Shown here: piece after piece, positions 22,853 to 60,160 of the stretch | Numbering within the stretch: position 1 is the stretch's first letter | Layout of the letters: each line of letters opens with the position of its first letter | Assembly: GCF_900090235.1 (NCBI RefSeq) | Contig: NZ_LT607750.1 | Span: 186,001-250,000 of the forward strand | Direction: 5' to 3' | Length of the DNA stretch: 64,000 nt | From: Micromonospora echinaurantiaca | Lineage (GTDB): Bacteria; Actinomycetota; Actinomycetes; Mycobacteriales; Micromonosporaceae | Made by a program: the position numbers and the translations under genes | The notes under the pieces: model-generated | The model's input: only the letters and a program-made list of their open reading frames with translations | What the model was told of the DNA's origin: nothing | Databases searched by the model: none

Positions 22853-23959
22853 GTGGACATGCCGGAGTCGGCGCCGTCCGGGCAACCGGACGACCGCCCC
22901 AGCGTGCCGGAGCAGCGCGGTACCGACGCGCCCTACCTGCGGGTGGACGACCTGCGGGTGCGGTTCGACACCGAGGACGGCGTAGTGCGCGCGGTCGACG
23001 GGGTGTCGTTCGCGGTGCAGCGCGGCCGGACGCTCGGCATCGTCGGCGAGTCCGGCTCGGGCAAGAGCGTGACCTCGCTGGCCATCCTCGGCCTGCACAA
23101 CCCGAAGCGCACCACCGTCACCGGGGAGATCCACGTCGGCGGCCGCCAACTGGTCGGCCTGCCCGAGGGCGAGGTACGCCGGCTGCGCGGCCGGGACATG
23201 GCGATGATCTTCCAGGACCCGCTCTCCGCGCTGCACCCGTACTACACGGTGGGCAAGCAGATCGTCGAGGCGTACCGGGTGCACCACCCGCGGGCCGGCA
23301 AGCGGGAGGCCCGGCAGCGCGCGGTGGACATGCTCGGCCGGGTCGGCATCCCGCAGCCGGCGCGCCGGTTCGACCAGTACCCGCACGAGTTCTCCGGTGG
23401 CATGCGTCAGCGCGCGATGATCGCGATGGCGCTGGTCAACGACCCGGAGCTGCTGATCGCCGACGAGCCGACCACCGCGCTGGACGTCACCGTGCAGGCG
23501 CAGATCCTGGACCTGCTGGCCGACCTCCAGGCCGAGTTCCACTCCGCGATCATCATGATCACCCACGACCTCGGCGTGGTCAGCCAGGTCGCCGACGACG
23601 TGCTGGTGATGTACGGCGGCCGGGCGGTCGAGCACGGCAGTGTCGAGCAGGTGCTGCGCCGGCCGCAGCACCCGTACACCTGGGGGTTGCTCTCCAGCGT
23701 GCCGTCACTGCGCGGCGACGCGGACGCGGAGCTGGTGCCGATCCGGGGCAACCCGCCCAGCCTGATCAACCTGCCGTCCGGCTGCGCCTTCCACCCGCGC
23801 TGCCGGTACGCCGACCGCAACGGCGACCGGTCCCGCACCGAGGTGCCGCAGCTGGGGCCGGCCGGCGAGGACGGCCACCTGGTCGCCTGCCACCTGCCCG
23901 CCGCCGAGCGGACCCGGCTCTACCAGGAGGACATCGCACAGGTGGGGGTGGCGCGGTGA
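22853..23959 (+). CDS. Oligopeptide ABC importer ATPase, OppD-like
   Basis: This 368-residue ATPase powers peptide import with its partner encoded next. Walker A is GESGSGKS (near residue 65), the signature is [15 protein letters not shown], and Walker B is [12 protein letters not shown] followed by the switch His in MITHDLGVV. The family-specific C-terminal domain is present ([14 protein letters not shown]), but where the family usually has a third Cys six residues later there is Gly, so the Cys set is incomplete. The GTG at 22853 has AGGGAGG upstream. First of five genes of the importer; a long upstream gap (22615-22852) should hold the promoter. Confidence 0.95.
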
Positions 23960-24014
23960 GCGCGAGGAACGCAGCGCAGTGGAGTACCGCAGTCGCGAAC
24001 GAAGGCGGGCTCCG
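23956..24014 (+). repeat. Operon-junction repeat, single copy between the two ABC ATPase genes
   Basis: A 59-bp element starting GTGAGCGCGAGGAACGC and containing GCAGTCGCGAACGAA lies between the stop of the first ATPase gene (whose TGA is inside the first GTGAG) and the start of the second. The second gene begins with another GTGAGCGCGAGG, so its start region derives from the same element. Related copies lie at 46090, 52704 and 59973. Confidence 0.75.
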
Positions 24015-25136
24015 GTGAGCGCGAGGAACGCGCCGGCGACCGGCGACGAGCCGCTGCTGCGGGTGAGCGGGCTGACCAAGCACTTCCCGGTGCGCAGCGG
24101 GTTCCGCAACCGCAGCGCGGTGCGGGCGGTGGACGGGCTGGACTTCGACGTGCGCCGGGGCGAGACGCTCGGCCTGGTCGGGGAGTCCGGCTGCGGCAAG
24201 ACCACCACCGGCCGGATGCTGGTGCGGCTGCTGGAGCCGACCGCCGGCACGCTCACCTTCGACGGGCGGGACATCACCCACGCCGGGCGCCGGGAACTGC
24301 GGCCGCTGCGGCAGGACCTCCAGATCATCTTCCAGGACCCGTACGCGTCGTTGAACCCGCGGCACACGGTGGGCCGGATCGTGGCCATGCCGCTGGAGGT
24401 CAACGGGGTCAAACCGCCGGGTGGGGTGAAGAAGCGGGTCCAGGAGCTGCTGGAACTGGTCGGGCTCAACCCGGAGCACTACAACCGCTATCCGCACGAG
24501 TTCTCCGGCGGCCAGCGGCAGCGGATCGGCATCGCCCGCGCGCTCGCGCTGCGGCCCAAGCTGATCGTCGCCGACGAGCCGGTCTCCGCGCTGGACGTGT
24601 CGATCCAGGCGCAGGTCATCAACCTGCTCCGCGACCTGCAACGCGACCTGGACCTGGCGTTCGTCTTCATCGCCCACGACTTGGCCGTGGTCCGGCACTT
24701 CTGCCAGCGGGTGGCGGTGATGTACCTGGGCAAGATCGTGGAGATCGGCGACCGGGCCGACATCTACGAGCGCCCGCAGCACCCGTACACCCGGGCCCTG
24801 CTCTCGGCGATCCCGGACGTCACCCAGCTCGGCGCCTCGGGGCGGATCCGGCTGGCCGGGGACGTCCCGACGCCGCTCGACCCGCCGTCCGGCTGCCGCT
24901 TCCGCACCCGCTGCTGGAAGGCGCAGGAGCGGTGCGCGACCGAGGAGCCGGCCCTCGTGCCGCGCGGCGGCGACCAGGCCACCGCCTGCCACTTCCCGGA
25001 GACCGGGCCGATCGGCGCCGGCCCGGGGACGACCGGCGACGGCGCCCCGCCGGCGGCGCGCGACGCCGCCGGCGACCGTGGCTCGCCGGCGGGGAGCGAC
25101 GAGGCCGGCGCGACCGCCGAGGAGGTGACCCGATGA
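24015..25136 (+). CDS. Oligopeptide ABC importer ATPase, OppF-like
   Basis: This 373-residue ATPase is the second motor of the peptide importer. Walker A is [12 protein letters not shown], the signature [15 protein letters not shown], Walker [13 protein letters not shown] and the switch His is in FIAHDLAVV. Its C-terminal domain keeps the full C-x5-C-x6-C pattern ([14 protein letters not shown]) plus a later TACHF, unlike the first ATPase. The last 45 residues are Gly/Ala-rich and probably disordered. GTG at 24015 is the sensible start: an upstream frame-open extension would translate the repeat. The end overlaps the next gene by 4 nt. Confidence 0.95.
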
Positions 25137-26134
25137 GCCTGTCCCCGACCGAGGGCGTGGCCCTGGCCGAGATCGAGTCCACCGGCGACGGTCCGGAGGA
25201 GAGGGCCCTGGTCGGCCGCTCGCCGGGCCAGCTCGTCTGGAGCCGGCTGCGGCGCGACCGGACCGCGCTGGTCAGCGGCGTGGTGCTGGTGGTCTTCGTG
25301 CTGCTGGCGCTGGGCGCGCCGCTGGTGCAGCGGCTGTACGGGGTGTCGCCGAACGAGCAGTTCGGCGAGCTGCTGGACGCCACCGGGATGCCGCTCGGCT
25401 ACGTCGGCGGGGTCAGCGGCGACCACTGGTTCGGGCTGGAGCCCGGCCTGGGCCGGGACATCTTCATCCGGATGATCTTCGGGATCCGCACCTCGCTGCT
25501 GATCGCGCTCGGCGCGGCCCTGATCACCACGACCGTCGGGGTGGTGCTCGGCATCATCTCCGGCTACCTGGGCGGGGTGGTCGACTCGGTGATCAGCTGG
25601 TTCACCGACGTCGCGCTGGCGATGCCGTTCCTGGTCTTCGCGCTGGCCGTGGTGCCGACGTTCTCGCTGCGCTTCTACGGCCCGCGGGACGCGGTGCCGA
25701 CCTGGTTCGCGGTCACCACGCTGATCGTGGTCTTCGCCGCGTTCGGGTGGACCAGCACCGCCCGGCTGGTCCGCGGCCAGGTGGTGTCGCTGCGCGAGCG
25801 GGAGTTCGTGGAGGCGGCCCGGGCCAGCGGCGCCGGGCTGGGGCACATGCTCTTCCGGCAGCTGCTGCCGAACATCTGGGCCCCGATCCTGGTGTCGTTC
25901 TCACTGCTGGTGCCGTCGTACGTGACCGGCGAGGCGGCGCTGTCCTTCCTCGGCGTCGGGCTGCCCGAGTCGGTGCCCAGCTTCGGTCGGATGATCTACC
26001 GCAGCATCGACTACCTGCAGACCGACCCGGCCTACGTCTTCTTCCCCGGCATCACGATCTTCGCGCTCGTGCTGGCGTTCAACCTCTTCGGCGACGCGCT
26101 GCGTGACGCGCTCGATCCGAAGTCGTCACGGTAA
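25133..26134 (+). CDS. Oligopeptide ABC importer permease, OppC-like
   Basis: This 333-residue inner-membrane permease has an N-terminal cytoplasmic extension, a first membrane helix ([19 protein letters not shown]) and the BPD_transp_1 domain with five more helices. The coupling (EAA) loop that touches the ATPases is [20 protein letters not shown]. It includes the DppC/OppC-specific external segment around [16 protein letters not shown]. Four-nt overlap (ATGA) with the OppF gene and a GGAGGTGACC ribosome site show coupling. It pairs with the next gene to form the transport channel. Confidence 0.95.
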
Positions 26135-26145
26135 GGGGTCTACGC

Positions 26146-27132
26146 ATGGTGCGCTTCCTGCTGAAGCGGGTGCTGCTGGCGGTCTCGGTGCTGCTCGCGG
26201 TGAGCGTGGTCAGCTTCCTGATGTTCTTCGCGCTGCCCCGCGACCCGGTGACCGGCATGTGCCCGAAGAACTGCAACGCCGAGCGGCTGGAACGGGTGCG
26301 GACCGAGCTGGGGCTCAACGACCCGAAGGTCGAGCAGTACGCCAACTACATGAAGGGCATCTTCGTCGGCCGCGACCTGGGCAGCGCCCAGGGCGGCGAG
26401 TGCGCGGCGCCCTGCCTCGGCTACTCGTACGTCAACAGCGAGGCGGTCACGGACACCTTCGCCCGGGTGCTGCCGGTGACGCTGAACATCGTCATCCCGG
26501 CGGCGGTGCTCTGGCTCGCCATCGGGGTGGGGCTCGGCATGGTCTCGGCACTACGCCGGGGTTCGCTGCTGGACCGGATCTCGATCGGGCTGACCCTGAC
26601 CTTCGCCTCGCTGCAGCTCTACTTCGTCGGCGCGGTGCTGCTGCTGATCTTCGTCTACGCGTTGAAGATCCTGCCGACACCACGCTACGTGCCCATCTTC
26701 GAGAATCCGGTGGAGTGGGCCCGCGGTCTGGTGCTGGCCTGGGTGACCCTGGCGCTGCTCTTCTCCGCGATCTACGCGCGGCTGTCCCGGGCGCAGATGC
26801 TGGAGACGCTCTCCGAGGACTTCGTCCGCACCGCGCGTGCCAAGGGCATGCCGAAGCGGCAGGTGTACGGGCGGCACGCGCTGCGCGCGGCGATCACGCC
26901 GATCGTCACCATCGCCGGTCTGGACGTCGGCGCGGCGCTCGGCGGCACGGTGATCACCGAGACCACGTTCGGCATCCAGGGCCTGGGCCGCACCGCCGTG
27001 GAGGCGGTCCGGCAGGGCGACCTGCCGACCATCATGGCCACCGTGTTGATCTCCGCCCTCTTCGTCGTCGTCGCCAACGTCGTCGTCGACCTGCTCTACG
27101 CCTTCATCGACCCGCGGGTACGGCTGGGCTGA
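26146..27132 (+). CDS. Oligopeptide ABC importer permease, OppB-like
   Basis: This 328-residue permease begins with the family-typical VRFLLKRVLLAVSVLLAVSV helix and ends with VADLLYAFIDPRVRLG-like sequence (read as VVDLLYAFIDPRVRLG). The EAA loop is EDFVRTARAKGMPKRQVYGR. Between the first and second helices is a loop with Cys in GMCPKNCNA and GGECAAPCLGY; four Cys in an external loop of this kind is unusual and might form disulfides. It follows OppC by 11 nt. Together the two permeases form the peptide channel. Confidence 0.95.
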   Translation: MVRFLLKRVLLAVSVLLAVSVVSFLMFFALPRDPVTGMCPKNCNAERLERVRTELGLNDPKVEQYANYMKGIFVGRDLGSAQGGECAAPCLGYSYVNSEAVTDTFARVLPVTLNIVIPAAVLWLAIGVGLGMVSALRRGSLLDRISIGLTLTFASLQLYFVGAVLLLIFVYALKILPTPRYVPIFENPVEWARGLVLAWVTLALLFSAIYARLSRAQMLETLSEDFVRTARAKGMPKRQVYGRHALRAAITPIVTIAGLDVGAALGGTVITETTFGIQGLGRTAVEAVRQGDLPTIMATVLISALFVVVANVVVDLLYAFIDPRVRLG

Positions 27133-27191
27133 CCGCCGTGCCGGGTGCCGATCGTTGTGGCCCCGTTATCTGATCGAAATTTACCAACATC

Positions 27192-27211
27192 GAAAGCTAC
27201 GCGAAGCTTTC
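27192..27211 (+). promoter_or_regulatory. Small hairpin in the leader of the binding-protein gene
   Basis: GAAAGCT-acgcga-AGCTTTC is a perfect 7-bp stem with a 6-nt loop, in an unusually AT-rich stretch (27165-27215) just before the ribosome site GGAGGAG. It may mark an internal promoter or a segment that stabilises the binding-protein message. Confidence 0.4.
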
Positions 27212-27238
27212 CTTCATCGGCGATCCGGAGGAGTGAGT

Positions 27239-28984: not shown

Positions 28985-29017
28985 CGCCACCCATCGAGCC
29001 GTAACACCGCACGGACT

Positions 29018-29051
29018 GGCCCCCGGTCGACAACGTCGTCGGCCGGGGGCC
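29018..29051 (+). terminator. Terminator hairpin after the binding-protein gene
   Basis: GGCCCCCGGTCGAC (29018-29031) pairs with GTCGGCCGGGGGCC (29038-29051), 14 bp with one G-T pair and a 6-nt loop, 34 nt after the stop codon. Confidence 0.8.
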
Positions 29052-29103
29052 ACCGCGTTGCCGCACCGGCCGTGCCCCGGCGCCGCGGCGGCTGCTCCGC
29101 ATC

Positions 29104-29143
29104 GGGTGCGTCTGTTGTCGCCGAGGCGCCAACAGACGCACCC
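29104..29143. terminator. Second perfect 14-bp hairpin, before the convergent S9 peptidase gene end
   Basis: GGGTGCGTCTGTTG (29104-29117) pairs perfectly with CAACAGACGCACCC (29130-29143); the loop can form a small GCC/GGC stem. It is placed to terminate the minus-strand S9 peptidase transcript and, after the first hairpin, the plus-strand one. Confidence 0.8.
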
Positions 29144-29156
29144 AAACCGGCTCGGC

Positions 29157-31298: not shown

Positions 31299-31305
31299 AG
31301 GCCAG

Positions 31306-31311
31306 ATCGTA
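31306..31311 (-). promoter_or_regulatory. -10 hexamer TACGAT of the S9 peptidase gene, leaderless
   Basis: On the minus strand TACGAT is followed by 7 nt and the GTG at 31298. The divergent mshB promoter lies 70 nt away. Confidence 0.6.
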
Positions 31312-31380
31312 GAGCGGGCTCCGGGGTGATGTGGCCGACCTGCCTGGACGCGTACGGGTCGGCGGGGCAGAACCGCCGGT

Positions 31381-31386
31381 TAGAGT
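31381..31386 (+). promoter_or_regulatory. -10 hexamer TAGAGT of mshB, leaderless
   Basis: TAGAGT, then 7 nt, then the GTG at 31394. The same hexamer and spacing occur before the M16 peptidase gene at 58666, which supports the choice of the mshB start. Confidence 0.62.
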
Positions 31387-31393
31387 GACCGTC

Positions 31394-32766: not shown

Positions 32767-32847
32767 CGACACACAGCTTCCGGTGGTAAGTATTCCTGCC
32801 AGGAGGCCCGCCGCCGCGGCGGGCGCGAGTACGGCGGGAGGCGTGCG

Positions 32848-33318: not shown

Positions 33319-33354
33319 CCCCGGCCGCGCCCGGCTTGGTCGCCGGGCGGTGGG

Positions 33355-34314: not shown

Positions 34315-34393
34315 GATCGACCCCCTCCCCGGCGAGATACTAGGCTCTAACCGTCGCGGGTGATCGCGGCGTGTCTTGCGGAGGAGAAGATCG

Positions 34394-46083: not shown

Positions 46084-46089
46084 TGATTC

Positions 46090-46138
46090 ACCTTTCGTTC
46101 GCGGCTGCGGGGCTCGCAAGCTCACTCCTCGCGCTCAC
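46090..46138 (-). repeat. Operon-junction repeat copy before dapD
   Basis: On the minus strand this 49-bp copy reads GTGAGCGCGAGGAGTGAGC at its start and GCAGCCGCGAACG near its end, finishing next to the dapD ribosome site. It is the same element as at 23956, 52704 and 59973, here in a divergent promoter gap rather than inside an operon. Confidence 0.8.
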
Positions 46139-47561: not shown

Positions 47562-47657
47562 GAATAGTAAGACGTACGAGCCAGCGAAATAGTTGCCCAA
47601 GATCGCGAACAATTTCCCGGCCTCGTCGCCCCGCGCACCCGGCCGGTACGACTCCAC

Positions 47658-47663: not shown

Positions 47664-47670
47664 TGCTCCC

Positions 47671-48666: not shown

Positions 48667-48668
48667 CC

Positions 48669-49214: not shown

Positions 49215-49305
49215 CGCACCCACGCCGGCCCGTGCCCAATGGGCGCTGCCGGGACGGGTGGAGTGTCGGAGATGGGGTGTCGTACCGGCGTGGTGGGATG
49301 GGCGG

Positions 49306-52300
49306 ATGCAGGCGTACCGGTTGGTGCGTCGGCCTGACCGGCCGACCGAGGAGCTCGGGTCGACCGGGCGGCCGACCGAGCAGCTCGTGCCCCGGCGCGG
49401 CGACCCGGTGCAGGCGGAGGTCGTCGGGCACACCGACGGGCCGATGCTGGTGCTCGGCGGCCCGGGCACCGGCAAGACCAGCACCCTGGTCGAGGCGGTC
49501 GCCGCCCGGGTGGCCGAGGGCGTCGACCCGGAACGCATCCTGGTGCTCACCTTCGGCCGGCGCGGCGCCACCGACCTGCGGCACCGGATCGAGGCCCGGG
49601 TCGCCCGGGGCGGCCCCCGGGTGCTCCGTGAGCCGCTGGTGCGCACCTTCCCGGCGTACGCCTTCGGCCTGCTCCGCCGGGCCGCGGCCGAGCGGGGCGA
49701 GCCCTCACCCCGGCTGCTCACCGGTCCGGAACAGGATCTGATCATCCGTGAGCTGCTGGACGTGGTCGGCGAGGAGCCGGACGACGACCCGGTCGGCTGG
49801 CCGGCGGACCTGCGACCGGCGCTGCGCACCCGGGCCTTCGCCGCCCAGCTGCGCGACCTGCTGATGCGGGCCGCCGAGCGCGGGGTCGGGCCGGTCGAGC
49901 TGGCCCGGCTCGGCGAGAAGCTCGGCCGCGCCGACTGGCCGGCCGCCGCCCGCTTCCTGCGCGAATACGTCGCGGTGCTCGCGCTGCGCGACGTCAGCAA
50001 CCGCGGTTCCATCGCCTACGACCCGGCCGAGCTGGTCCGGGCCGCCACCGGCATGTTGCTCGACGACGCGGAGCTGCTCGCGGCCGAGCGGCGCCGGCTG
50101 GCGTACGTCTACGTCGACGAGCTGGCCGACACCGACCCGGCCCAGCTCGACCTGCTCGCCGCGGTGGCCGGGGGCGGCAAGCCGCTGGTCGCCTTCGCCG
50201 ACCCGGATTCCTCCACGTACGCCTTCCGGGGCGCCGACCCGGCCGGGGTGACCACCTTCCCGCACCGGTTCCGCACCGTCTCCGGCGCGCCCGCCGCGCA
50301 GGTGGTGCTGACCACCTCCTACCGGGCCGGGCCGCGACTGCTGTCCGCGTCGGCCCGGCTGGCCCGGCGGTTGCGTGGCCCGGCGGCGCACCGCCGGCTG
50401 CGCCCGCTGCCCGACGCGGCCCCCGGCTCGGTCGAGGTGCACACCTTCCGCTCGGCGACCAGCGAGGCGGCCTGGCTGGCCCACGCGCTGCGGGCGGCGC
50501 ACCTGCTCGACGGGGTGCCGTGGTCGGAGATGGCCGTGCTGGTGCGCTCCACCGCGCGACAGCTGCCCTCGTTGCAACGGGCGCTGCACGCCGCCGGGGT
50601 GCCGACCGTGGTGCACGGTGAGGACCTGCCGCTGCACCTGCAACCGGCGGTGGCGCCGCTGCTGCTCCTGCTGCGCTGCGCGCTGGAGCCGGAGCGGCTC
50701 GACGAGGAGGCCGCGGTCGCGCTGCTGCACTCGCCGCTGGGCGGCGCCGATCCGCTCGCCGAGCGGCGGCTGCGGCAGGGGCTGCGGGCGCTCGCGCTGG
50801 CCGCCGGTGACCGCCGCCCGTCCGGTGAGCTGATCGTCGAGGCGTTACGCGACCCGGCCGAGCTGGCCGGGATCGAGCGTCGCTGGGCGGAACCGGCGCA
50901 GACCGTGGCCGGTCTGCTCGCCGTCGCCAGGGAGGCGGCGGCCCGGCCCGGGGCGACCGCCGAGGAGGTGCTCTGGGCGGCCTGGCGGGCCAGCGGGCTG
51001 GCCGGGCTCTGGTCGTCCGCGATCAGCCGGGGCGCGGCGGCGCCCGGCGAGGGTGATGTGGCGCGCCGGCGCCGGGCCGAGGCGGCCGACCGCGACCTGG
51101 ACGCGGTGATGGTGCTCTTCGACGCCGCCGCCCGCTTCACCGACCGGTTGCCCGGCGCGCGGACCGAGGTCTTCCTCGACCACGTGCTCGGTCAGGACCT
51201 GCCCGCCGACACCCTGGCGCCGACCGCCGACCGGGGCGACGCGGTCCGGCTGCTCACCGCGCACGCGGCGAAGGGGCTGGAGTGGGACCTGGTCGCGGTG
51301 GCCGGGGTGCAGGAGGGGGTCTGGCCCGATCTGCGGCTGCGCGGCAGCCTGCTCGGCGCGGAACGGCTGGTCGACGTGCTCGCCGGCCGGTCGGGCGGGG
51401 GCAGCGTGGCCACCCTGGTCGGGCAGACCTCGGCGCTGCTGGACGAGGAACGCCGGCTGTTCCACGTCGCGGTGACCCGGGCCCGGCACCGGCTGCTGGT
51501 CAGCGCGGTGGCCTCGGCCGCCGTCGGCGGTGACGACCACGAGGAGCAGCCGAGCCGCTTCCTCTACGAACTCGGCCCCACCGACCCGCCCGACGGCGGT
51601 CACCCGCCCGACGGACCCGCCCCGACGCCCGGCGACGGCGGCCCGGACGACGACGCGCCCGGGCCGGGACGGTCCACCGGCGACGCTGGCGAGGATCGGC
51701 CGCGCAGCCTGCCGGTGAGCCGGCCGCCGCGGGCGCTGACCCTGCCGGCGCTGGTGGCGGAGCTGCGGACCGCGGTCAGCGACCCCGACCTGCCGTACGC
51801 CCGCCGACAGGCCGCCGCGGCCGAGCTGGCCCGGCTGGCCGCCGCCGGCGTGTCCGGCGCGCACCCCGACGACTGGTGGGGGCTGCGCCCGCTCTCCGAC
51901 GACCGGCCGCTGGTGGACGACGGGGAACCGGTCCGGGTCACCCCGTCGGCGATGGAGAGCGCACTCCGGTGCAGCCTGCGCTGGCTGCTGGAACGGCACG
52001 GCGGCAGCGCCCCGGCCAGCGCCGCCCAGGGGGTCGGCAACCTGGTGCACGCCGCCGCCATGCTGGCCGAGGACGCCAGCGCCGACCGGGGCGCGCTGCT
52101 CGACTACGTGGCCGCCCGGTTCGACGCGATCGAGCTGGCCGCCCGCTGGATGGCCGGCCCGGAGCAGGCCCGCGCCGAGGCGATGGTGGACAAGCTGCTG
52201 CGCTGGCTGGCCGCCAACCCGCGCCGGCTGCTCGCCATCGAGCACGAGTTCGCGGTACGCCTCGACGACCCGCACCGCCCGGTACAGCTCACCGGCCGGG

Positions 52301-52716
52301 TGGACCGGCTGGAGGTGGACGCGGACGGCCGGCTGGTGGTGGTCGACCTGAAGACCGGCAAGTCCACCGCGGTGACCGCCGCCGACCTGGCCGAGCACCC
52401 GCAGTTGGGCGCGTACCAGGCGGCGGTGGAGGCGGGGGCGTTCGCCGAGTTCGGCGACTCCTCCGGCGGGGCGGCCCTGGTGCAGCTCGGCACCGGGGCG
52501 AAGGACGCGAAGGAGCAGAGCCAGCCGCCGGCCGGCGAGGGCCCGGAGGCGGGCTGGGCGACCGCGCTGGTCCGGCGCACCGCCGATACGATGGCCGCCG
52601 CCACCTTTGCCGCGGTCGCCAACTCCAAGTGCCGGGTCTGCCCGGTGCGGACGAGCTGCCCGGTCTCCGGGCAGGGGCGCCAGGTGGTCGAGCCGCCCAC
52701 CGTCCGCGAGGAGTGA
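49306..52716 (+). CDS. adnA: AdnA-type helicase-nuclease subunit with predicted Fe-S cluster
   Basis: AdnA pairs with AdnB to unwind and resect DNA ends for recombination. The 1136-residue protein has a UvrD-type motor: Walker A GGPGTGKTSTLVEA (about residue 51) and a Walker B-like YVDELADTDPAQ. Motif VI is RLFHVAVTRARHRLLVS. A RecB-type nuclease domain is at the end: LVVVDLKTGKSTAV holds the catalytic D...K. Cys889 (ALRCSLRW) and Cys1109, 1112 and 1118 (CRVCPVRTSC) match the 4-Cys iron-sulfur pattern of AddB-like nucleases. ATG at 49306 is my choice. The end, TVREE-stop, is written in the dispersed repeat. Confidence 0.93.
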   Translation: MQAYRLVRRPDRPTEELGSTGRPTEQLVPRRGDPVQAEVVGHTDGPMLVLGGPGTGKTSTLVEAVAARVAEGVDPERILVLTFGRRGATDLRHRIEARVARGGPRVLREPLVRTFPAYAFGLLRRAAAERGEPSPRLLTGPEQDLIIRELLDVVGEEPDDDPVGWPADLRPALRTRAFAAQLRDLLMRAAERGVGPVELARLGEKLGRADWPAAARFLREYVAVLALRDVSNRGSIAYDPAELVRAATGMLLDDAELLAAERRRLAYVYVDELADTDPAQLDLLAAVAGGGKPLVAFADPDSSTYAFRGADPAGVTTFPHRFRTVSGAPAAQVVLTTSYRAGPRLLSASARLARRLRGPAAHRRLRPLPDAAPGSVEVHTFRSATSEAAWLAHALRAAHLLDGVPWSEMAVLVRSTARQLPSLQRALHAAGVPTVVHGEDLPLHLQPAVAPLLLLLRCALEPERLDEEAAVALLHSPLGGADPLAERRLRQGLRALALAAGDRRPSGELIVEALRDPAELAGIERRWAEPAQTVAGLLAVAREAAARPGATAEEVLWAAWRASGLAGLWSSAISRGAAAPGEGDVARRRRAEAADRDLDAVMVLFDAAARFTDRLPGARTEVFLDHVLGQDLPADTLAPTADRGDAVRLLTAHAAKGLEWDLVAVAGVQEGVWPDLRLRGSLLGAERLVDVLAGRSGGGSVATLVGQTSALLDEERRLFHVAVTRARHRLLVSAVASAAVGGDDHEEQPSRFLYELGPTDPPDGGHPPDGPAPTPGDGGPDDDAPGPGRSTGDAGEDRPRSLPVSRPPRALTLPALVAELRTAVSDPDLPYARRQAAAAELARLAAAGVSGAHPDDWWGLRPLSDDRPLVDDGEPVRVTPSAMESALRCSLRWLLERHGGSAPASAAQGVGNLVHAAAMLAEDASADRGALLDYVAARFDAIELAARWMAGPEQARAEAMVDKLLRWLAANPRRLLAIEHEFAVRLDDPHRPVQLTGRVDRLEVDADGRLVVVDLKTGKSTAVTAADLAEHPQLGAYQAAVEAGAFAEFGDSSGGAALVQLGTGAKDAKEQSQPPAGEGPEAGWATALVRRTADTMAAATFAAVANSKCRVCPVRTSCPVSGQGRQVVEPPTVREE

Positions 52717-52808
52717 GCTTGCCAGCCCCGCAGTCGCGAACTGAGGCAGCACCTGTGAGCGTGAGGAGTGAGCTTGCGAGCCCCGCAGTCGCGAACTGAG
52801 GCAGCGCG
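52704..52808 (+). repeat. Two tandem copies (55-bp period) of the operon-junction repeat between adnA and adnB
   Basis: GAGGAGTGAGCTT occurs at 52708 and again at 52763; both copies contain CGCAGTCGCGAACTGAGGC. The first copy supplies the adnA stop (TGA at 52714-52716); the second ends at the adnB GTG. The two copies differ at a few positions. Confidence 0.85.
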
Positions 52809-55800
52809 GTGACCCAGCCGACGCTCTTCGGCGCCGCGACCCCGGCGCCCCGGGTGGCCGACGCCGGCCCCCGGTACACCCCGATCGAGCTGGCGAAGCT
52901 GCTGCGGCTGCCCGCACCGACCCGGGAGCAGGCGGCGATCATCGCCGCCCCGGTGGAGCCGCTGCTGGTGGTCGCGGGCGCGGGGTCGGGCAAGACCGAG
53001 ACGATGGCCGCCCGGGTGGTCTGGCTGGTGGCCAACGCGTACGTGCGGCCGGAGCAGGTGCTCGGGCTCACCTTCACCCGCAAGGCCGCCGGCGAGCTGG
53101 CGCACCGGGTGCGTACCCGGCTGGACCAGCTGGTGCGCCGGCTCGGTCGGCAGGGGCGCGACCCGCTCGACGACCCGCTGGCCGGGGAGCCGACCGTCTC
53201 CACCTACCACTCGTACGCCGGGCGGATCGTCACCGAGCACGGCCTGCGGGCCGGCTACGAGCCGTCCACCCGGCTGCTCACCGAGGCGTCCCGCTGGCAG
53301 CTGGTCGACCTGCTGGTGCGCAACTACGACGGGGACATGTCCGAGGTGGACCGGATGCCGAGCACCATCACCGACGCGGTGCTGGCGCTCGCCGGCGAAC
53401 TGGACGAGCACCTGGTCGACCCGGACGACCTGGCCGCCTGGACCGGCCGTTTCTTCGCCGAGGTGCAGGCCCGCCCCGGCCGGGTCTACGCCGACGTGCG
53501 CAAGGCGCTCGCCCTCGCGCAGACCCGGCTGAAGCTGCTCCCGCTGGTGCGCGCGTACGCCCGGCGCAAGGAGGACTTCGAGGCGATGGACTTCGCCGAC
53601 CAGCTGGCCCGGGCGGCCCGGGTGGCGCGCGACCACCCCGGCGTCGGCGAGATCGAGCGGGACCGCTTCCGGGTGGTGCTGCTCGACGAGTACCAGGACA
53701 CCAGCCACGCCCAGGTGGTGCTGCTCAACGCGCTCTTCGGCGGCGGGCACCCGGTGACCGCGGTCGGTGACCCGTGCCAGTCCATCTACGGCTGGCGCGG
53801 CGCGTCCGCCGGCACCCTGGACCGCTTCCCGACCGAGTTCGCCCGCGTCGACGGCGCCCCGGCCGAGGTGCTCAGCCTCACCACCAGCTGGCGCAACCGC
53901 CCGGAGATCCTCGGCGTGGCCAACGCGCTGGCCACCCCGCTGCGGGCCGCCGGCGCCCGGGTGCCGGAGCTGCACGCGGCGCTGAGCGTCAAGGACCCGG
54001 TGCCGCACCGCAGCGCCCGCGGCGCCGCCGGCGGCACGGTGCACTGCGCGCTGCTTCCGACGTACGCCGACGAGGCGAAGTGGATCGCCGACAGCGTGCT
54101 GAACGCGTGGCGCGGCGCGGCCGGCACCCCCGGCGCGCTGCCCGAGCACATCCCGGTGCCGCAGCGGCCGACGACGGCGGTGCTGGTCCGGCTGCGCAGC
54201 CAGATCCCGGCGATCGAGTCGGCGCTGCGCGCCCGCGGCCTGCCGGTGGAGGTGGTCGGTCTCGGTGGTCTGCTGGACACCCCGGAGGTGCGGGACGTGG
54301 TCTGCACCCTGCGGGTGCTGGCCGACCCGACCGACGGGGCGGCGCTGCTGCGGCTGCTCACCGGGGCCCGCTGGCGGATCGGGCCGCGCGACCTGGTGGC
54401 GCTGCACCGCCGGGCGCGGGCGATCGCCGCGGCCCGCCGGCAACTGGCTGACGACGGCACCCCGGAGATCACCCCGGACGCGCTGGACGAGGCGACCCTG
54501 GTGGAGGCGCTGGCCGACCTCGGCCCGGCGCAGGCGTACTCGGCCGAGGGCTACGCGCGGCTGCGCGCGTACGCCCGGGAGCTGGGCCTGCTCCGCTACC
54601 GGCTGGACCAGTCGCTGCCGGACCTGATCGCCGACATCGAGCGGACCATCGGCCTGGACGTGGAGGTCGCGGTCCGGGCCGGCCGGGACGGCGCCGGCGA
54701 CGCCGGCCTGGCCCGGGGGCACCTGGACGCGCTCGGCGACGTGGCCGCCCGGTTCAGCGGGGAGACCCCGGGGGCCACCCTGTCGGCCTTCCTCGCCTAC
54801 CTGGCCGCCGCCGAGGACGAGGAGCGCGGCCTCACCCCGGGCGAGGTGGAGGTGGTCGAGGGGGCGGTGCAGATCCTCACCGCGCACGCCGCCAAGGGTC
54901 TGGAGTGGGACGTGGTGGCGGTGGCCGGGCTGTGCCGGGGCGTGTGGCCGGGGCCGGTGCACAACTCCGACCACTGGCTCGGTGGGCTCGGCGTGCTGCC
55001 CTTCCCGCTGCGCGGCGACGCCGACGGCCTGCCCGAGCTGGGTCTGGCCGGGGCGGAGGACCAGCGCGGGGTGGCCCGGGCGCTGGAGGACTTCACCGAC
55101 GCCTGGCGGGCGCACGACGAGCGGGAGGAGCGGCGGCTGGCGTACGTGGCGGTGACCCGGCCGCGCCGGCTGCTGCTCTGCTCCGGCTACTGGTGGGGGG
55201 AGGGCACCAAGCGGCCGCGCGGCCCGTCGGTGCTGCTCCGCGAGGTGCACGACGCCTGCCTGGACGGCGGCGCGGGGCACTTGGTCGACGAGTGGGCGCC
55301 GGAGCCCTCGCCGGACGCGACCAACCCGACCGCCGAGGTGGTGCTGCGGGCCGAGTGGCCGGCCGACCCGCTGGGCGCCCGCCGGCCGGCGCTGGCCGAG
55401 GCGGCGGCGCTGGTCCGCCGGTTCCTCGCCGACGGCGACGGCGACGCCGCGGACGGCGATCCGCTGGCCGACGACCCGGAGGTGACGCGCTGGCGGCGGG
55501 AGGCCGACCTGCTGCTCGCCGAGCGGGCCGAGCTGACCCGGCAGGCCGGGGCGATCGAGGTGGGGCTGCCGGGGCACCTCTCGGTGACCCAGCTGGTGGC
55601 GCTGCGCCGCGATCCGGCCGCGCTCGCCCGGACGCTGCGCCGCCCGCTGCCCAGCGAGCCCAATCCGTACGCCCGCCGGGGCACCGCCTTCCACGCCTGG
55701 CTGGAGCAGCGGTTCGGGGCCGACCGGCTGCTCGACGTGGACGAACTGCCTGGCGCGGCGGACGCGGACGCGGCGCCCGACGAGGCGCTCGCCGAGCTCC

Positions 55801-56186
55801 AGGAGCGTTTCCTGGCCAGCGAATGGGCCGACCGGGTGCCGGTCGAGGTGGAGGTGCCGTTCGCCACGGTGATCGCCGGGGTGGTGGTCCGGGGCCGGAT
55901 GGACGCGGTCTTCGCCCGGCCCGGCGGGCGGTTCGACGTGGTCGACTGGAAGACCGGCGGCCAGCCCACCGGGGCCGCGGCCGACGTCGCCGCGGTGCAG
56001 CTGGCGGTCTACCGGTTGGCCTGGGCGGAGCTGGCGGGTGTGCCGGTGGAGCGGGTCGGCGCGGCGTTCCACTACGTCCGGGACGGGATGACCGTGCGCC
56101 CGGCCGACCTGCTCGACGCCGAGGGGCTGACCGCGCTGATCGCCGCGGTGCCGGAAGTTCCAGGCGACAACGCCCGCCAGCCGTGA
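52809..56186 (+). CDS. adnB: AdnB-type helicase-nuclease subunit
   Basis: AdnB is the second, usually dominant, motor-nuclease of the mycobacterial-type resection enzyme. The 1125-residue protein contains Walker A VAGAGSGKTETMAARVV (about residue 55), Walker B with VVLLDEYQDTSHAQ, an intact Q/III region (SLTTSWRN), motif VI RRLAYVAVTRPRRLLLCS, and a C-terminal nuclease with FDVVDWKTGGQPTG. No Cys cluster is seen in its nuclease, unlike AdnA. GTG at 52809 follows the tandem repeat. Both subunits thus have motor and nuclease domains, as expected for AdnAB and unlike RecBCD. Confidence 0.95.
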   Translation: MTQPTLFGAATPAPRVADAGPRYTPIELAKLLRLPAPTREQAAIIAAPVEPLLVVAGAGSGKTETMAARVVWLVANAYVRPEQVLGLTFTRKAAGELAHRVRTRLDQLVRRLGRQGRDPLDDPLAGEPTVSTYHSYAGRIVTEHGLRAGYEPSTRLLTEASRWQLVDLLVRNYDGDMSEVDRMPSTITDAVLALAGELDEHLVDPDDLAAWTGRFFAEVQARPGRVYADVRKALALAQTRLKLLPLVRAYARRKEDFEAMDFADQLARAARVARDHPGVGEIERDRFRVVLLDEYQDTSHAQVVLLNALFGGGHPVTAVGDPCQSIYGWRGASAGTLDRFPTEFARVDGAPAEVLSLTTSWRNRPEILGVANALATPLRAAGARVPELHAALSVKDPVPHRSARGAAGGTVHCALLPTYADEAKWIADSVLNAWRGAAGTPGALPEHIPVPQRPTTAVLVRLRSQIPAIESALRARGLPVEVVGLGGLLDTPEVRDVVCTLRVLADPTDGAALLRLLTGARWRIGPRDLVALHRRARAIAAARRQLADDGTPEITPDALDEATLVEALADLGPAQAYSAEGYARLRAYARELGLLRYRLDQSLPDLIADIERTIGLDVEVAVRAGRDGAGDAGLARGHLDALGDVAARFSGETPGATLSAFLAYLAAAEDEERGLTPGEVEVVEGAVQILTAHAAKGLEWDVVAVAGLCRGVWPGPVHNSDHWLGGLGVLPFPLRGDADGLPELGLAGAEDQRGVARALEDFTDAWRAHDEREERRLAYVAVTRPRRLLLCSGYWWGEGTKRPRGPSVLLREVHDACLDGGAGHLVDEWAPEPSPDATNPTAEVVLRAEWPADPLGARRPALAEAAALVRRFLADGDGDAADGDPLADDPEVTRWRREADLLLAERAELTRQAGAIEVGLPGHLSVTQLVALRRDPAALARTLRRPLPSEPNPYARRGTAFHAWLEQRFGADRLLDVDELPGAADADAAPDEALAELQERFLASEWADRVPVEVEVPFATVIAGVVVRGRMDAVFARPGGRFDVVDWKTGGQPTGAAADVAAVQLAVYRLAWAELAGVPVERVGAAFHYVRDGMTVRPADLLDAEGLTALIAAVPEVPGDNARQP

Positions 56187-56229
56187 TAGGTTCGGTGGGT
56201 TGCAGTTTTGGTTTCCAGAGACTCTGTGT

Positions 56230-56257
56230 GCGCCTGGCGGATTGTGGCCCCAGGCGC
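56230..56257 (+). terminator. Stem-loop with T-rich tail between adnB and the cold-shock gene
   Basis: GCGCCTGG (56230-56237) pairs with CCAGGCGC (56250-56257), followed by TCTTTGTTGT. This is the only hairpin in the window with a good T run. It may terminate adnAB or, if the csp transcript starts upstream, act as an attenuator. Confidence 0.7.
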
Positions 56258-56390
56258 TCTTTGTTGTGTCCGGAGTTCTCCGGGCGGGGCGACCAGCAGC
56301 GACAGGCGAGCCACGCACTCCGCGTGGACCGCTCCTCTCGAGCCCGCAACAGGTGCGGGTTCGACGTTCCGTCAAGGAGACGAGACAAGT
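56258..56390 (+). promoter_or_regulatory. Structured 5' leader of the cold-shock gene
   Basis: Between the T-rich hairpin and the csp start are three hairpins: CCGGA/TCCGG near 56270-56283, CCACGC-actcc-GCGTGG at 56311-56327, and CGAGCCCGC/GCGGGTTCG at 56339-56363 (one G-T pair). The last ends 12 nt before AAGGAG. A long structured leader is typical of cold-shock mRNAs, where structure controls translation by temperature. Confidence 0.6.
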
Positions 56391-56594
56391 ATGGCTATTG
56401 GCACCGTCAAGTGGTTCAACGCTGACAAGGGCTTCGGTTTCATCACCCCGGACGGCGGCGGCGCCGACGTCTTCGCCCACTTCTCGGCGATCCAGTCCTC
56501 CGGCTACCGGAGCCTGGACGAGAACCAGCGGGTCGAGTTCGAGATCACCCAGGGCCAGAAGGGCCCGCAGGCGGAGAACATCCGCCCGCTCTGA
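56391..56594 (+). CDS. cspA: Cold-shock protein (CspA family)
   Basis: This 67-residue OB-fold protein binds single-stranded RNA and DNA and acts as an RNA chaperone. RNP1 is KGFGFI (in [16 protein letters not shown]) and RNP2 is VFAHFS (in [15 protein letters not shown]). The end, ENIRPL, is the family's last strand. The ATG at 56391 has AAGGAGACGAG upstream. The leader has several hairpins and two strong hairpins follow, so it is probably a single-gene transcript. Micromonosporaceae have several csp paralogues; which one this is cannot be told from the sequence. Confidence 0.96.
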
Positions 56595-56626
56595 TCTGCG
56601 GCGACACCCGTAGTTAGGCACCTCCG

Positions 56627-56645
56627 CCGCGCCCTCCGGGCGCGG
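56627..56645 (+). terminator. First csp terminator hairpin
   Basis: CCGCGCCC-tcc-GGGCGCGG is a perfect 8-bp stem, 33 nt after the csp stop. Confidence 0.75.
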
Positions 56646-56652
56646 TGACGGT

Positions 56653-56685
56653 GGCCGGCCCGCCCCACTGCGCGGCGGGCCGGCC
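56653..56685 (+). terminator. Second csp terminator hairpin
   Basis: GGCCGGCCCGCC (56653-56664) pairs perfectly with GGCGGGCCGGCC (56674-56685) around a 9-nt loop, 7 nt after the first hairpin. Confidence 0.75.
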
Positions 56686-56793
56686 CCGTACCCCCTCGGT
56701 TCGTGCTTGTGATCACCGCGGCCTGGCTCCGCCGGTGACAGCGCCGCCTCCGGCGCCTTCCTCGACACGTGCCGCCTCGAGGAAGGCTTCCCG

Positions 56794-58101
56794 TTGACCA
56801 CCGTCGTACCCTCCTTCGCCGGCACCGGCTTGGCGCCGGCCCTGCTCGCCACGCTGAGCGCGCAGGGCATCACCGAACCGTTCCCGATCCAGGCGGCCAC
56901 CCTGCCCGACTCGCTCGCCGGCCGGGACGTGCTCGGCCGGGGCCGCACCGGCTCCGGCAAGACCCTCGCCTTCGGGCTCCCGCTGCTGCACCGCACCGCT
57001 GGCAACCGAGCCCGGCCCGGCCGCCCGCTGGCGCTGGTGCTGGTGCCGACCCGGGAGCTGGCCCAGCAGGTCAGCACCGCGCTCGCCCCGTACGCCCGGG
57101 CCGTCGGGGTGCGGTGCGCCACGGTGGTCGGCGGCCTGTCGCTGCAGCGCCAGGCGGACGCGCTGCGCGCCGGCGCCGAACTGGTCGTGGCCACCCCCGG
57201 GCGGCTGCACGACCTGATCAACCGCGGTGACGTCCGGCTCGACCAGGTCGCCACCACCGTGCTGGACGAGGCCGACCAGATGGCCGACATGGGCTTCCTG
57301 CCGCAGGTCACCAAGCTGCTGGAGCAGGTCGCCCCGGACGGGCAGCGGATGCTCTTCTCCGCCACCCTGGACGGTGGCGTGGACCGCCTGGTCCGCCGGT
57401 TCCTCAGCGACCCGGTCACCCACTCGGTCGACCCGGGCACCGCCACGGTGACCGCGATGACCCACCACCTGCTGCACGTCGACGCGGTGGACAAGCCGGC
57501 CACGCTGGCCCAGATCGCCGCCCGCGAGGGCCGCACCATCCTGTTCATGGGCACCAAGCACCGCGCCGACCGGCTGGCCCGACAGTTGCTGGCCAAGGGG
57601 GTCCGCGCCGCGGCGCTGCACGGCGGGAAGTCGCAGCCGCAGCGCACCCGGATCCTGGAGCAGTTCCGCACCGGGCAGGTGAGCGCGCTGGTCGCCACCG
57701 ACGTCGCGGCCCGCGGCATCCACGTCGACGGGCTGGACCTGGTGGTCAACGTGGACCCGCCGACCGAGGCGAAGGACTACCTGCACCGGGGTGGGCGGAC
57801 CGCCCGGGCCGGCGAGTCCGGCACGGTGGTCACGCTGGTCCTGCCCGAGCAGCGCCGGGACGTCTCGCGGCTGATGGCGGCGGCCGGCATCCGGCCGCAC
57901 TCGGCGCAGGTCCGCCCCGGCGACCCCACGCTGGTCCGGGCGACCGGTGCCCGAGAGCCGTCCGGCGTGCCGGTGACCATCGCCGCCCCGCCGGCCCCGG
58001 CGCCCCGTACCCGCGCCGGCGACGGCACGGGCGCGCCCGGTCGCACTCCGCACCGCGCCTCCGGTCGGCCGCGCCGCCCGCGTCGCCCCCGCGCCTCCTG
58101 A
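56794..58101 (+). CDS. DEAD-box RNA helicase
   Basis: This 435-residue helicase remodels RNA. The Q motif lies in GITEPFPIQAATLP, motif I is GRTGSGKT, Ia is VPTRELAQQ, motif II is VLDEADQMADMGF, III is FSATLDGG, IV and V include LFMGTKH and ATDVAARGIHVDG, and VI is HRGGRTARAG. A Pro/Arg-rich basic tail of about 55 residues ends in PRRPRRPRAS and probably binds RNA. TTG at 56794 is the start, with GAGGAAGG 7 nt upstream. It sits just after the cold-shock gene, and helicases of this type often help during cold shock, but each gene has its own flanking signals. Confidence 0.95.
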   Translation: MTTVVPSFAGTGLAPALLATLSAQGITEPFPIQAATLPDSLAGRDVLGRGRTGSGKTLAFGLPLLHRTAGNRARPGRPLALVLVPTRELAQQVSTALAPYARAVGVRCATVVGGLSLQRQADALRAGAELVVATPGRLHDLINRGDVRLDQVATTVLDEADQMADMGFLPQVTKLLEQVAPDGQRMLFSATLDGGVDRLVRRFLSDPVTHSVDPGTATVTAMTHHLLHVDAVDKPATLAQIAAREGRTILFMGTKHRADRLARQLLAKGVRAAALHGGKSQPQRTRILEQFRTGQVSALVATDVAARGIHVDGLDLVVNVDPPTEAKDYLHRGGRTARAGESGTVVTLVLPEQRRDVSRLMAAAGIRPHSAQVRPGDPTLVRATGAREPSGVPVTIAAPPAPAPRTRAGDGTGAPGRTPHRASGRPRRPRRPRAS

Positions 58102-58153
58102 GGCGTCGGTCCCCCTGCTGGCCTCGGCCCGGAGCGGCGCCGGCCGCCTGCTG

Positions 58154-58191
58154 AGTCGGCAATCAGCGCCGGCTGGGTCGGGTGGCCGACT
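58154..58191 (+). terminator. Weak hairpin after the helicase gene
   Basis: AGTCGGC (58154-58160) pairs with GCCGACT (58185-58191), with an inner CAGC-gccg-GCTG stem. It lies 53 nt past the stop and overlaps no known gene. Confidence 0.4.
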
Positions 58192-58269
58192 GTGCCGCCG
58201 CCGCCCGTGGTCGAGGCTGACGGCGGGGGGAACGGCCGGGCCGATCGGCTCGACGCGGGAGGGGTGACC

Positions 58270-58485
58270 ATGGCGGGCGACACCGGCACCACGGCGCTGC
58301 GTGAGCTGCTGTTCGTGGTCGCGGTCGCCGCCGCCGGGCTGCTGCTCGCCATGGTGGCGGTCTTCACGCCCTGGCACGCCACGCCGGGCGGGGCCGCCCC
58401 GGCCGGCCCGGTGGAACTGCACAGCCCGGTCGGCGCGGTGGACGAGCCCGGCCAGTCCGGGCGGACTGACCCGACCGCCGGCTGA
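58270..58485 (+). CDS. Small single-helix membrane protein, 71 aa
   Basis: No family recognised. A short N-terminal cytosolic part (MAGDTGTTALREL) is followed by one membrane helix (LFVVAVAAAGLLLAMVAVF), then a Pro/Gly-rich tail that would lie outside the cell. The ATG at 58270 has GGGAGG upstream with 6-nt spacing; a GTG at 58264 is too close. It sits between the helicase and M16 genes on the same strand. Small bitopic proteins like this are common in actinobacteria and may modify larger membrane complexes. Confidence 0.65.
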   Translation: MAGDTGTTALRELLFVVAVAAAGLLLAMVAVFTPWHATPGGAAPAGPVELHSPVGAVDEPGQSGRTDPTAG

Positions 58486-58652
58486 GCCGCGGTCGTCGTA
58501 CCCCGGTCGGACCGGTGCCCGCGGAGGGGCGGGCCCGGTCGCGGGGTGCGAGGCGTGGTCGGGTCGGCGGGGCACCGGCCCGGCCACGCCGACCGGCGTC
58601 GCCGCCCGGTCCCGGCTCGGCGGAGGTCACCGGCACGGCGGTGCCGACGCGT

Positions 58653-58658
58653 TAGAGT
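58653..58658 (+). promoter_or_regulatory. -10 hexamer TAGAGT of the M16 gene, leaderless
   Basis: TAGAGT, then 7 nt, then GTG at 58666. Identical hexamer and spacing to mshB. Confidence 0.62.
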
Positions 58659-58665
58659 CGATCAC

Positions 58666-59976
58666 GTGCCGACGCGGAGAGCGAGAATTCCAGTCACCAA
58701 GTACCCGGCCGAACGGTTCAGCCTCGACAACGGCCTGCGGGTGGTGCTCACCCCGGACCGCAGCGCACCGGTGATCGGCGTCGCGGTCGTCTACGACGTC
58801 GGCATCCGTTCCGAGCCGGAGGGCCGCACCGGCTTCGCCCACCTCTTCGAGCACCTGATGTTCCAGGGCTCGGAGAACCTGGAGAAGCTGGCCCACTTCC
58901 GGCACGTGCAGGGTGCGGGCGGCACCTTCAACGGCTCCACCCACCTGGACTACACCGACTACTTCGAGACCCTGCCGAGCAACGCGCTGGAGCGGGCGCT
59001 CTTCCTGGAGGCCGACCGGATGCGCGGCCCTCGGCTGACCGAGGAGAACCTGCGCAACCAGGTCGACGTGGTCAAGGAGGAGATCCGGGTCAACGTGCTC
59101 AACCGCCCGTACGGCGGGTTTCCCTGGCTGACCCTGCCGCCGGTCATGTTCGACACCTTCCCGAACGCGCACGACGGCTACGGCTCCTTCGTCGACCTGG
59201 AGTCGGCCACCGTCGCCGACGCCGCCGACTTCTTCCGCCGCTACTACGCCAGCGGCAACGCGGTGCTCGCGGTCAGCGGCGACATCGACGTGGCCGAGGC
59301 GACCGAGCTGATCGGCCGGCACTTCGGGGACGTGCCGGCCCGGCCCGCGCCCGAGCGGCCGGACTTCACCGAGCCGGACCTGACCGTCGAGCGGCGCACC
59401 GCGTACACCGACAAGCTGGCCCCGCTGCCGGCGGTGGCCTCGGCCTGGCGGGTGCCCGACCCGCTCGCCGACTTCGCCGGCTACCTGCCCTACGTGGTGC
59501 TCGCCGAGGTGCTCACCGACGGCGACGCGTCCCGGCTGGTCGAGCGGCTGGTGCTGCGGGACCGGGCGGTCACCAGCGTCGGTGGCTACCTCGGTTTCAT
59601 GGGCGACCCGTTCGACGTGCGGGACCCGACGGCGCTGCTGCTCCAGGCGCACCTGCCACCCGGCGGCGACGTGGACAAGGTGCTGCGCACCGTCGACGAG
59701 GAGCTGGACCGGCTGGCCACCGACGGGCTGGCCGACGGCGAGCTGGGCCGCACCCAGGCCAGGATGGCCACGCACCTGCTGCGCGACACCGACGCGGTGC
59801 TCACCCGGGCGCTGCGGATGGCCGTGCTGGAACAGCAGCGCGGTGAGCCGGGCCTGCTCAACGAGCTGCCCCGGCTGGTCGGCGAGGTCACCGAGGAGCA
59901 GGTCCGCGCCGCCGCCGCCACCCTGCGGCCGGAGCGCCGCGCGTCCGTCGAGGTCATCCCCGGAGGTGCCCGGTGA
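58666..59976 (+). CDS. M16-family zinc metallopeptidase, catalytic subunit
   Basis: This 436-residue clam-shell peptidase has the inverted zinc motif HLFEH (in FAHLFEHLMFQGSENL) and the distal Glu in QVDVVKEEIRVNVL. M16B enzymes work as pairs of a catalytic and a non-catalytic subunit that process or degrade short peptides. The C-terminal domain contains the usual LVERLVLRDRAVTSV segment. GTG at 58666 is the start, with a leaderless-type promoter. Its stop lies in the first of three tandem repeats that separate it from the partner gene. Confidence 0.95.
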   Translation: MPTRRARIPVTKYPAERFSLDNGLRVVLTPDRSAPVIGVAVVYDVGIRSEPEGRTGFAHLFEHLMFQGSENLEKLAHFRHVQGAGGTFNGSTHLDYTDYFETLPSNALERALFLEADRMRGPRLTEENLRNQVDVVKEEIRVNVLNRPYGGFPWLTLPPVMFDTFPNAHDGYGSFVDLESATVADAADFFRRYYASGNAVLAVSGDIDVAEATELIGRHFGDVPARPAPERPDFTEPDLTVERRTAYTDKLAPLPAVASAWRVPDPLADFAGYLPYVVLAEVLTDGDASRLVERLVLRDRAVTSVGGYLGFMGDPFDVRDPTALLLQAHLPPGGDVDKVLRTVDEELDRLATDGLADGELGRTQARMATHLLRDTDAVLTRALRMAVLEQQRGEPGLLNELPRLVGEVTEEQVRAAAATLRPERRASVEVIPGGAR

Positions 59977-60160
59977 GCGCGAGGAGTGAGCCGGGGTTGC
60001 GAGCCCCGCAGTCGCGAACGAAAAGGCGAGTCCCGGTGAGCGCGAGGAGTGAGCCGGGGTTGCGAGCCCCGCAGTCGCGAACGAAAAGGCGAGTCCCGGT
60101 GAGCGCGAGGAGTGAGCCGGGGTTGCGAGCCCCGCAGTCGCGAACGAAAGGTGGGCCCCG
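59973..60160 (+). repeat. Three tandem copies (63, 63, 62 bp) of the operon-junction repeat
   Basis: GTGAGCGCGAGGAGTGAGC begins at 59973, 60036 and 60099; the next gene starts at 60161 with a near-copy, GTGAGCGCGAAGAGC. Each unit contains GGGGTTGCGAGCCCC, which can fold as a small hairpin, and GCAGTCGCGAACGAA. The first TGA stops the upstream M16 gene. The first two copies are identical over their full 63 bp; the third is one base shorter and differs only in its last dozen bases. In one frame the units read through as 21-residue repeats. Confidence 0.9.

Follow-up and report, generated by a model that had tools for sequence, protein, structure and literature searches.

Short mini-ORF repeats at stop/start codon overlaps of Micromonospora genes: likely insertion units with a MIRU-like architecture

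Introduction

Mycobacterial interspersed repetitive units (MIRUs), reportedly described by Supply et al. in 1997, are typing markers in worldwide use, and we know of no mechanism by which they move. IS200/IS605 TnpA elements, for their part, insert beside short target motifs. As far as the accessible parts of two papers go, in which no enzyme is named, MIRUs appear to be mobile and to insert at start codons, the open reading frame (ORF) inside them being coupled to the gene with a spacing of −4 nt (PMC12548453), and their units are 77 and 53 bp long (PMC4213456); by our own arithmetic, both lengths leave a remainder of two on division by three (2 mod 3). Here we analyse a repeat found in a 64,000-nt stretch of the 7.2-Mb genome of Micromonospora echinaurantiaca (RefSeq assembly GCF_900090235.1, contig NZ_LT607750.1, positions 186,001 to 250,000 of the forward strand; hereafter the window). 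An initial annotation had placed the repeat at four sites, here labelled J24, J46, J52 and J60, and all four hold up, with the sizes and positions at J60 exactly as given. The repeat belongs to a real family (family 1) with a high turnover and a precise niche at the level of single codons, and a second family (family 2) follows the same rule. In our assessment the repeats are probably non-autonomous insertion units of small size, each of them a mini-ORF in translational coupling with its neighbours, in the manner reported for MIRUs.

Results

Unit structure and coding frame

From its 5′ end, a family 1 unit consists of GTGAGCGCGAGGAGTGAGC, a short variable part, GCGAGCCCCGCAGTCGCGAAC and an A/G-rich spacer that runs up to the next start codon. 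The typical unit is a mini-ORF, the GTG of which overlaps the TGA of the upstream gene as GTGA and the own TGA of which overlaps the next start. Its 3′ end is Shine-Dalgarno-like, the 12 nt after the core giving a mean energy against the 16S anti-Shine-Dalgarno sequence of −7.5 versus −2.7 kcal/mol (n = 86 and 408, respectively). The anatomy was analysed at 100 sites drawn from the matches listed in six genomes of the genus (25 sites in the window genome and 75 in five relatives), with two listed sites (G001 and G010) left out. At 81 of these 100 sites the TGA of the first GTGA closes a frame that is open for at least 100 codons, as against 256 of 1136 control GTGAs of the same stretches, in agreement with the operon-junction niche suggested in the initial annotation. 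Likewise, an ATGA or GTGA start with a long frame follows 44–75 nt after the start of the last unit at 78/100 sites (controls, 72/858).

The distance from the GTG of the last unit to the gene start was measured at 86 sites, excluding 14 for which no start was found, and is 2 mod 3 at 68 of them, 0 mod 3 at 14 and 1 mod 3 at 4. When only ATGA and GTGA starts are counted, 63/78 distances are 2 mod 3, compared with 16/72 for control GTGAs (Fisher p = 4e-13). This is the length that the double overlap requires, that is, of the GTG with the upstream TGA and of the unit's TGA with the downstream GTG. Two core classes can be told apart: units with the short, 42-nt core are 2 mod 3 in 17 cases out of 23, with a mode of 56 nt (14/23), and those with the long, 47-nt core in 44 out of 52, with a mode of 59 nt (34/52). 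The 5-nt difference between the cores is thus offset by a spacer that is 2 nt shorter, by which both classes keep to the 2 mod 3 rule.

A second family under the same rule

Family 2 units start with GTGAGCGAGCGNAGCGAGCGAACCA and were found, allowing one mismatch, in 103 of the 151 genomes of the genus searched. At 30 of the 37 sites studied they close an upstream frame that is open for 100 codons or more. Of the 30 sites at which the last unit could be measured (no start was found at the other 7), 28 follow the 2 mod 3 rule and 23 have a unit of exactly 80 nt. The coupling frame is open in every one of 29 different units of 80 nt, selected by an ATGA or GTGA at +80, despite wide sequence variation; the other two frames are open in 26 and 16. 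The exact 22-mer of the head occurs in 21 of 298 genomes, three of which (G304, G388 and G466) lie outside the family but within the order, and in the two of these three whose locus was inspected the next start lies at 68 and 71 nt, both 2 mod 3. At two sites (L223 and L240) a family 2 unit is directly followed by a family 1-like unit. The frame argument is carried by family 2 together with the two core classes of family 1.

Patchy occupancy of orthologous junctions

Orthologous junctions were compared among species, using 80 loci per junction for J60, J52 and J46, from which loci missing a flank were dropped (12, 1 and 25, respectively). J60 lies between two M16 peptidase genes, J52 between two genes for UvrD-like helicase-nucleases and J46 between dapE and dapD. 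J60 is filled, by 1–4 units, in 26 of the 68 relatives for which both flanks are covered, giving an overall range of 0–4 copies, and many of the unfilled loci are a bare DTGA overlap (D standing for A, G or T). Four J60 loci (L053, L074, L075 and L076), scored as absent, bear scars of 9, 18, 27 and 39 nt, each a multiple of three. J52 is filled in 36/79 relatives and J46 in 25/55, both scored in a narrowed region, as a wider one gives false positives in coding sequence. For J24, flanked by two genes for peptide-type ABC transporter ATPases, the junction was covered in 30 of 41 genomes of the genus, the window's own among them, and 8 of the 30 are filled, counting as empty one locus (L267) that exceeded the limit of 12 mismatches though filled by appearance. 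The J24 unit is 59 nt long in 7/8 genomes, the right-hand ATGA is retained in 6/8, and 15 of the 22 other genomes read CCCGATGA. Comparison of these filled and empty forms suggests entry of the unit immediately 5′ to a DTGA start, with the GTGA brought in by the unit itself.

As to the question raised in the initial annotation, whether orthologous junctions lack the element, these counts show that many do, and conservation in distant genera, which that annotation had named as evidence against mobility, was not found. All filled loci of J60, J52 and J46 belong to the genus Micromonospora by NCBI ranks, while Salinispora, Plantactinospora, Asanoa and Phytohabitans are empty wherever they are covered (Plantactinospora is uncovered at J46). 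Most orthologues of the window's helicase gene come from Micromonospora. In a tree of the helicase, Salinispora is nested among Micromonospora, and the nine loci that branch outside this joint clade are empty wherever covered. The minimum number of changes on the tree is 15 for J60, 16 for J52 and 11 for J46.

J46 differs in that its empty form has no upstream stop, a GGTACCGTCA motif lying only a few bases ahead of the dapD start. This suggests that the target is the start codon itself, and that the operon overlap is merely its usual setting. From its sequence, the empty-form dapD would appear to be leaderless. Several unit-less species look leaderless among the dapD leaders of loci L040–L118, and the unit-bearing species gain a Shine-Dalgarno-like leader; dapD with and without the unit could serve as a natural experiment on leaderless translation. 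As a separate observation, a GC-rich palindrome (GTTCC...GGCTCGCGTGGGACGCGG...GGAAT) occurs within or beside family 1 units at L057 (J52) and L054 (J46); it looks like a distinct, REP-like (repetitive extragenic palindromic) sequence.

Genomic and taxonomic distribution

The 19-base head of family 1, with at most one mismatch, occurs at 38 places in the window genome, and the reversed pattern at none. A profile search of that genome based on sequence only (E ≤ 0.01) returned 59 units at 41 sites, namely 28 single, 8 double and 5 triple ones. The family is therefore dispersed well beyond the window, and the tandem expansion described in the initial annotation is seen in these arrays as well as in the 1–4 units at J60. 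The exact family 1 core is present in 63/63 genomes of the genus and in 17/187 other genomes of the same family, and is absent from all 318 genomes that represent the order's other families; the order-wide search covered 397 genomes, comprising these 318, 62 of the same genus and 17 of the same family, one of which was positive. In one other genus (G192 and G214), four sites lie behind upstream frames of 127–279 codons, and at a fifth site (G024) the upstream frame has only 10 codons. No match to the unit was obtained in the phage records searched, and the plasmid records gave one, on pLB1, where the unit at 3001–3059 sits between a gene end at 3004 and the next gene start at 3060 in the RefSeq annotation. 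A title search of the literature, limited to its best-ranked part, returned nothing on such repeats in Micromonospora, two of its hits being papers on plant barcoding, and fragments of the unit sequence were found in no paper of the literature searched.

The copies in the window

The copies in the window are listed in Table 1. The initial annotation had the element run from the stop of one gene to the start of the next in three of the four places; this is exact at J24 and J60 and loose at J52, and J46 meets a start only. The J46 unit lies between the divergent dapE and dapD, with no upstream stop and with its 3′ end at the dapD GTG. J52 is made up of two units spaced 55 nt apart. At J60, units 1–3 form a single 63-codon ORF that ends with the TGA at 60162–60164, on the GTGA at 60161. 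The partial copies recognised earlier at 24015 and 60161 are indeed present. A NUDIX gene comes next after the two M16 peptidase genes of J60, and the junction before it holds a family 2 copy (61540–61642) that the initial annotation does not contain, in a chain of M16 stop, 23-nt ATG mini-ORF, 80-nt GTG mini-ORF and NUDIX gene joined by three successive −4 nt overlaps. Elsewhere in the window, an Rfam match to the cspA thermoregulator at 56340–56653 stays below threshold (35.7 bits versus a gathering score of 78) and is probably due to chance.

Table 1. Family 1 and family 2 copies in the window (window coordinates)
Feature	Position	Strand	Context
Family 1 unit, 59 nt	23956..24014	+	J24; upstream stop 23957-23959; open mini-ORF, TGA 24016-24018 overlapping GTG 24015
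Family 1 head, from a second unit	24015..24031	+	Fused to the ABC transporter ATPase gene that follows, as its N-terminus
Family 1 unit, 55 nt	46084..46138	-	J46; upstream of dapD, start GTG 46083; unit frame stops 4 nt earlier
Family 1 unit, 5′ end lost	52705..52754	+	J52; upstream helicase-nuclease gene terminates within it, 52714-52716
Family 1 unit, 54 nt	52755..52808	+	J52; unit frame stops 52797-52799, 9 nt ahead of start 52809
Family 1 array unit 1, 63 nt	59973..60035	+	J60; GTGA overlaps M16 peptidase stop 59974-59976
Family 1 array unit 2, 63 nt	60036..60098	+	J60
Family 1 array unit 3, 62 nt	60099..60160	+	J60
Decayed fourth unit, 48 nt	60161..60208	+	In frame with second M16 peptidase gene; start in relatives equivalent to 60209
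Family 2 short unit, 23 nt	61540..61562	+	ATGA overlaps M16 gene stop 61541-61543
Family 2 full unit, 80 nt	61563..61642	+	Open mini-ORF; next start GTG 61643, NUDIX, NAD diphosphatase-like

Discussion

The explanation that we favour is one of insertion at start codons. The preferred landing site would be a DTGA start codon, usually within the −4 nt stop/start overlap of an operon. The GTGA of the inserted unit would act both as the stop of the upstream gene and as the opening of the mini-ORF, and at the other end the unit would provide a Shine-Dalgarno-like stretch and a stop overlapping the downstream start. The frame, the overlaps and the Shine-Dalgarno-like spacers suggest that the mini-ORF is translated and coupled in the cell, and a link to the coupling between genes that the initial annotation had considered is likely. 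We propose that insertion is cheap because ribosome traffic to the downstream gene would be preserved, and that arrays grow because every unit recreates the landing site. Decay by deletion would leave scars or in-frame N-terminal extensions, and the movement itself would be due to a trans-acting enzyme. N-terminal extensions that stem from the repeats (MSARSE..., MSERSER...), for which the two families would be a source, may cause start codons to be misannotated in these genomes.

A number of observations weigh against this explanation. No mobility enzyme was found for the units. A long upstream frame is missing at 19 of the 100 anatomy sites, and no start was found at 14. Within the window, J46 and J52 have no exact overlap, their mini-ORFs ending 4 and 9 nt short of it. 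The best-matched control for the frame rule, which is small, consists of GTGAs that close a long frame; of these, 7/18 obey the 2 mod 3 rule when ATGA/GTGA starts are counted and 36/69 when any start is. Outside the modal lengths 19/37 family 1 units obey the rule, control GTGAs with any start doing so in 108/300 cases, and this weakness suggests that a founder length could contribute; inside arrays the spacings obey in 31/52. A special avoidance of 1 mod 3 lengths was considered and rejected, as the controls are depleted of them too. Furthermore, the mini-ORF peptide of neither family has an excess of third-position changes: substitutions at the three codon positions number 7/17/12 in class A and 15/5/8 in class B of family 1, and 68/122/101 in family 2, where the synonymous share of codon differences is 22% in frame 0 and 14% and 29% in the other frames. 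It is therefore the frame, rather than the peptide, that looks constrained. Finally, the changes counted on the helicase tree are fewer than in all 100 label shuffles (minima of 17, 19 and 14 for J60, J52 and J46), from which it follows that the states are partly inherited, and that there is inheritance beside turnover.

Among the alternatives, the one that survives best is that the units travel within larger segments by recombination, through homologous exchange of junctions and tandem slippage and with no present transposition, the modal lengths being founder lengths. Slippage could explain the copy number of 1 to 4 at the single junction J60, and both the missing mobility enzyme and the weak mod-3 rule of family 1 outside its modal lengths fit this scenario; it is harder to reconcile with units at dozens of unrelated junctions, with a length rule that holds for both core classes and for the distinct family of 80-nt units, and with the many empty sites that are clean DTGA overlaps. 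Recombination concerns movement only; it does not conflict with what the insertion model says about coupling, so that the probabilities of the two overlap, and we regard it as possible, if somewhat doubtful.

It is very unlikely that the repeats are cis-regulatory RNAs (attenuators, riboswitches, or processing or stability elements) conserved for a function at these genes. Their location inside operons and their almost invariant core would agree with such a role, but the repeats are often missing at orthologous junctions, the downstream genes are unrelated, no covariation was seen, and an Rfam scan of positions 52000–62000 gave no match on the units there.

The proposal of the initial annotation that the element is REP-like and tied to a REP-associated tyrosine transposase (RAYT) was not supported. 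Five units folded one by one were no more stable than shuffled controls, with z between −1.28 and 0.82, and an alignment fold of 30 units yielded no compensatory pair. Y1_Tnp matches among 13 same-genus genomes (none in 7, one in 5, two in 1) do not track unit numbers, the seven genomes without a match carrying 14–49 unit matches, with 49 and 37 among them. The window genome has one Y1 transposase gene (L031:1465-1881; 138 codons from its ATG in an open frame of 151), which looks like an IS200/IS605-type TnpA, and in the 3.4-kb locus around it the best match to a unit head has 6 mismatches. The least credible explanation is hence a palindrome that a TnpA-REP transposase mobilises and that genes simply tolerate between them. 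Short, dispersed, extragenic and tandem units and a single Y1 gene are what speaks for it; it would not explain the frame rule, and the seven Y1-free carriers, the absence of a fold better than shuffles or of a compensatory pair and the unit-free Y1 locus speak against it.

Returning to insertion at start codons, we would advance only tentatively the broader idea that selfish units of this kind form a general class of convergent origin, in which codon overlap and reading frame, rather than the sequence, are the defining traits. Its members would be mini-ORF cassettes that enter −4 nt overlaps by means of a DTGA-recognising trans-acting enzyme, keep ribosomes coupled and seed new N-termini on decay; the two Micromonospora families would belong to it, and MIRUs would be a third.

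When set beside known systems, the units would resemble IS200/IS605 elements in inserting beside a short target motif, but no tnpA was seen linked to them. With REP sequences and bacterial interspersed mosaic elements (BIMEs) served by RAYTs they share being short, dispersed, extragenic and often tandem; they differ in having no conserved palindrome, no required RAYT and a position set by codons. A search of 98 genomes of one genus, probably Mycobacterium, gave no significant match to the units (best E, 0.006). Two of six loci inspected there have the GTGAGCGCGA core inside what appears by eye to be coding sequence, and we took these matches as chance. We do not call the Micromonospora units MIRUs; they are likened to them by architecture, as the portions of the MIRU papers at hand describe it, the MIRU sequence lying outside the comparison. 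The host is Micromonospora and not a mycobacterium, and there are two families, of 56/59 and 80 nt. The likeness lies in short, tandem-capable units at start codons, seemingly mobile, with an internal ORF coupled to the next gene at −4 nt. In Micromonospora the units sit at intercistronic junctions or start codons, oriented with the flanking genes; the mini-ORF has the −4 nt overlap in 63/78 family 1 and 28/30 family 2 last units; the Shine-Dalgarno-like 3′ end has been measured; and copy number and presence vary at junctions among species. This matching architecture suggests, within what those portions report, that the Micromonospora units work like MIRUs, and two families with a MIRU-like frame rule could be compared to find out if such repeats owe their spread to translational coupling.

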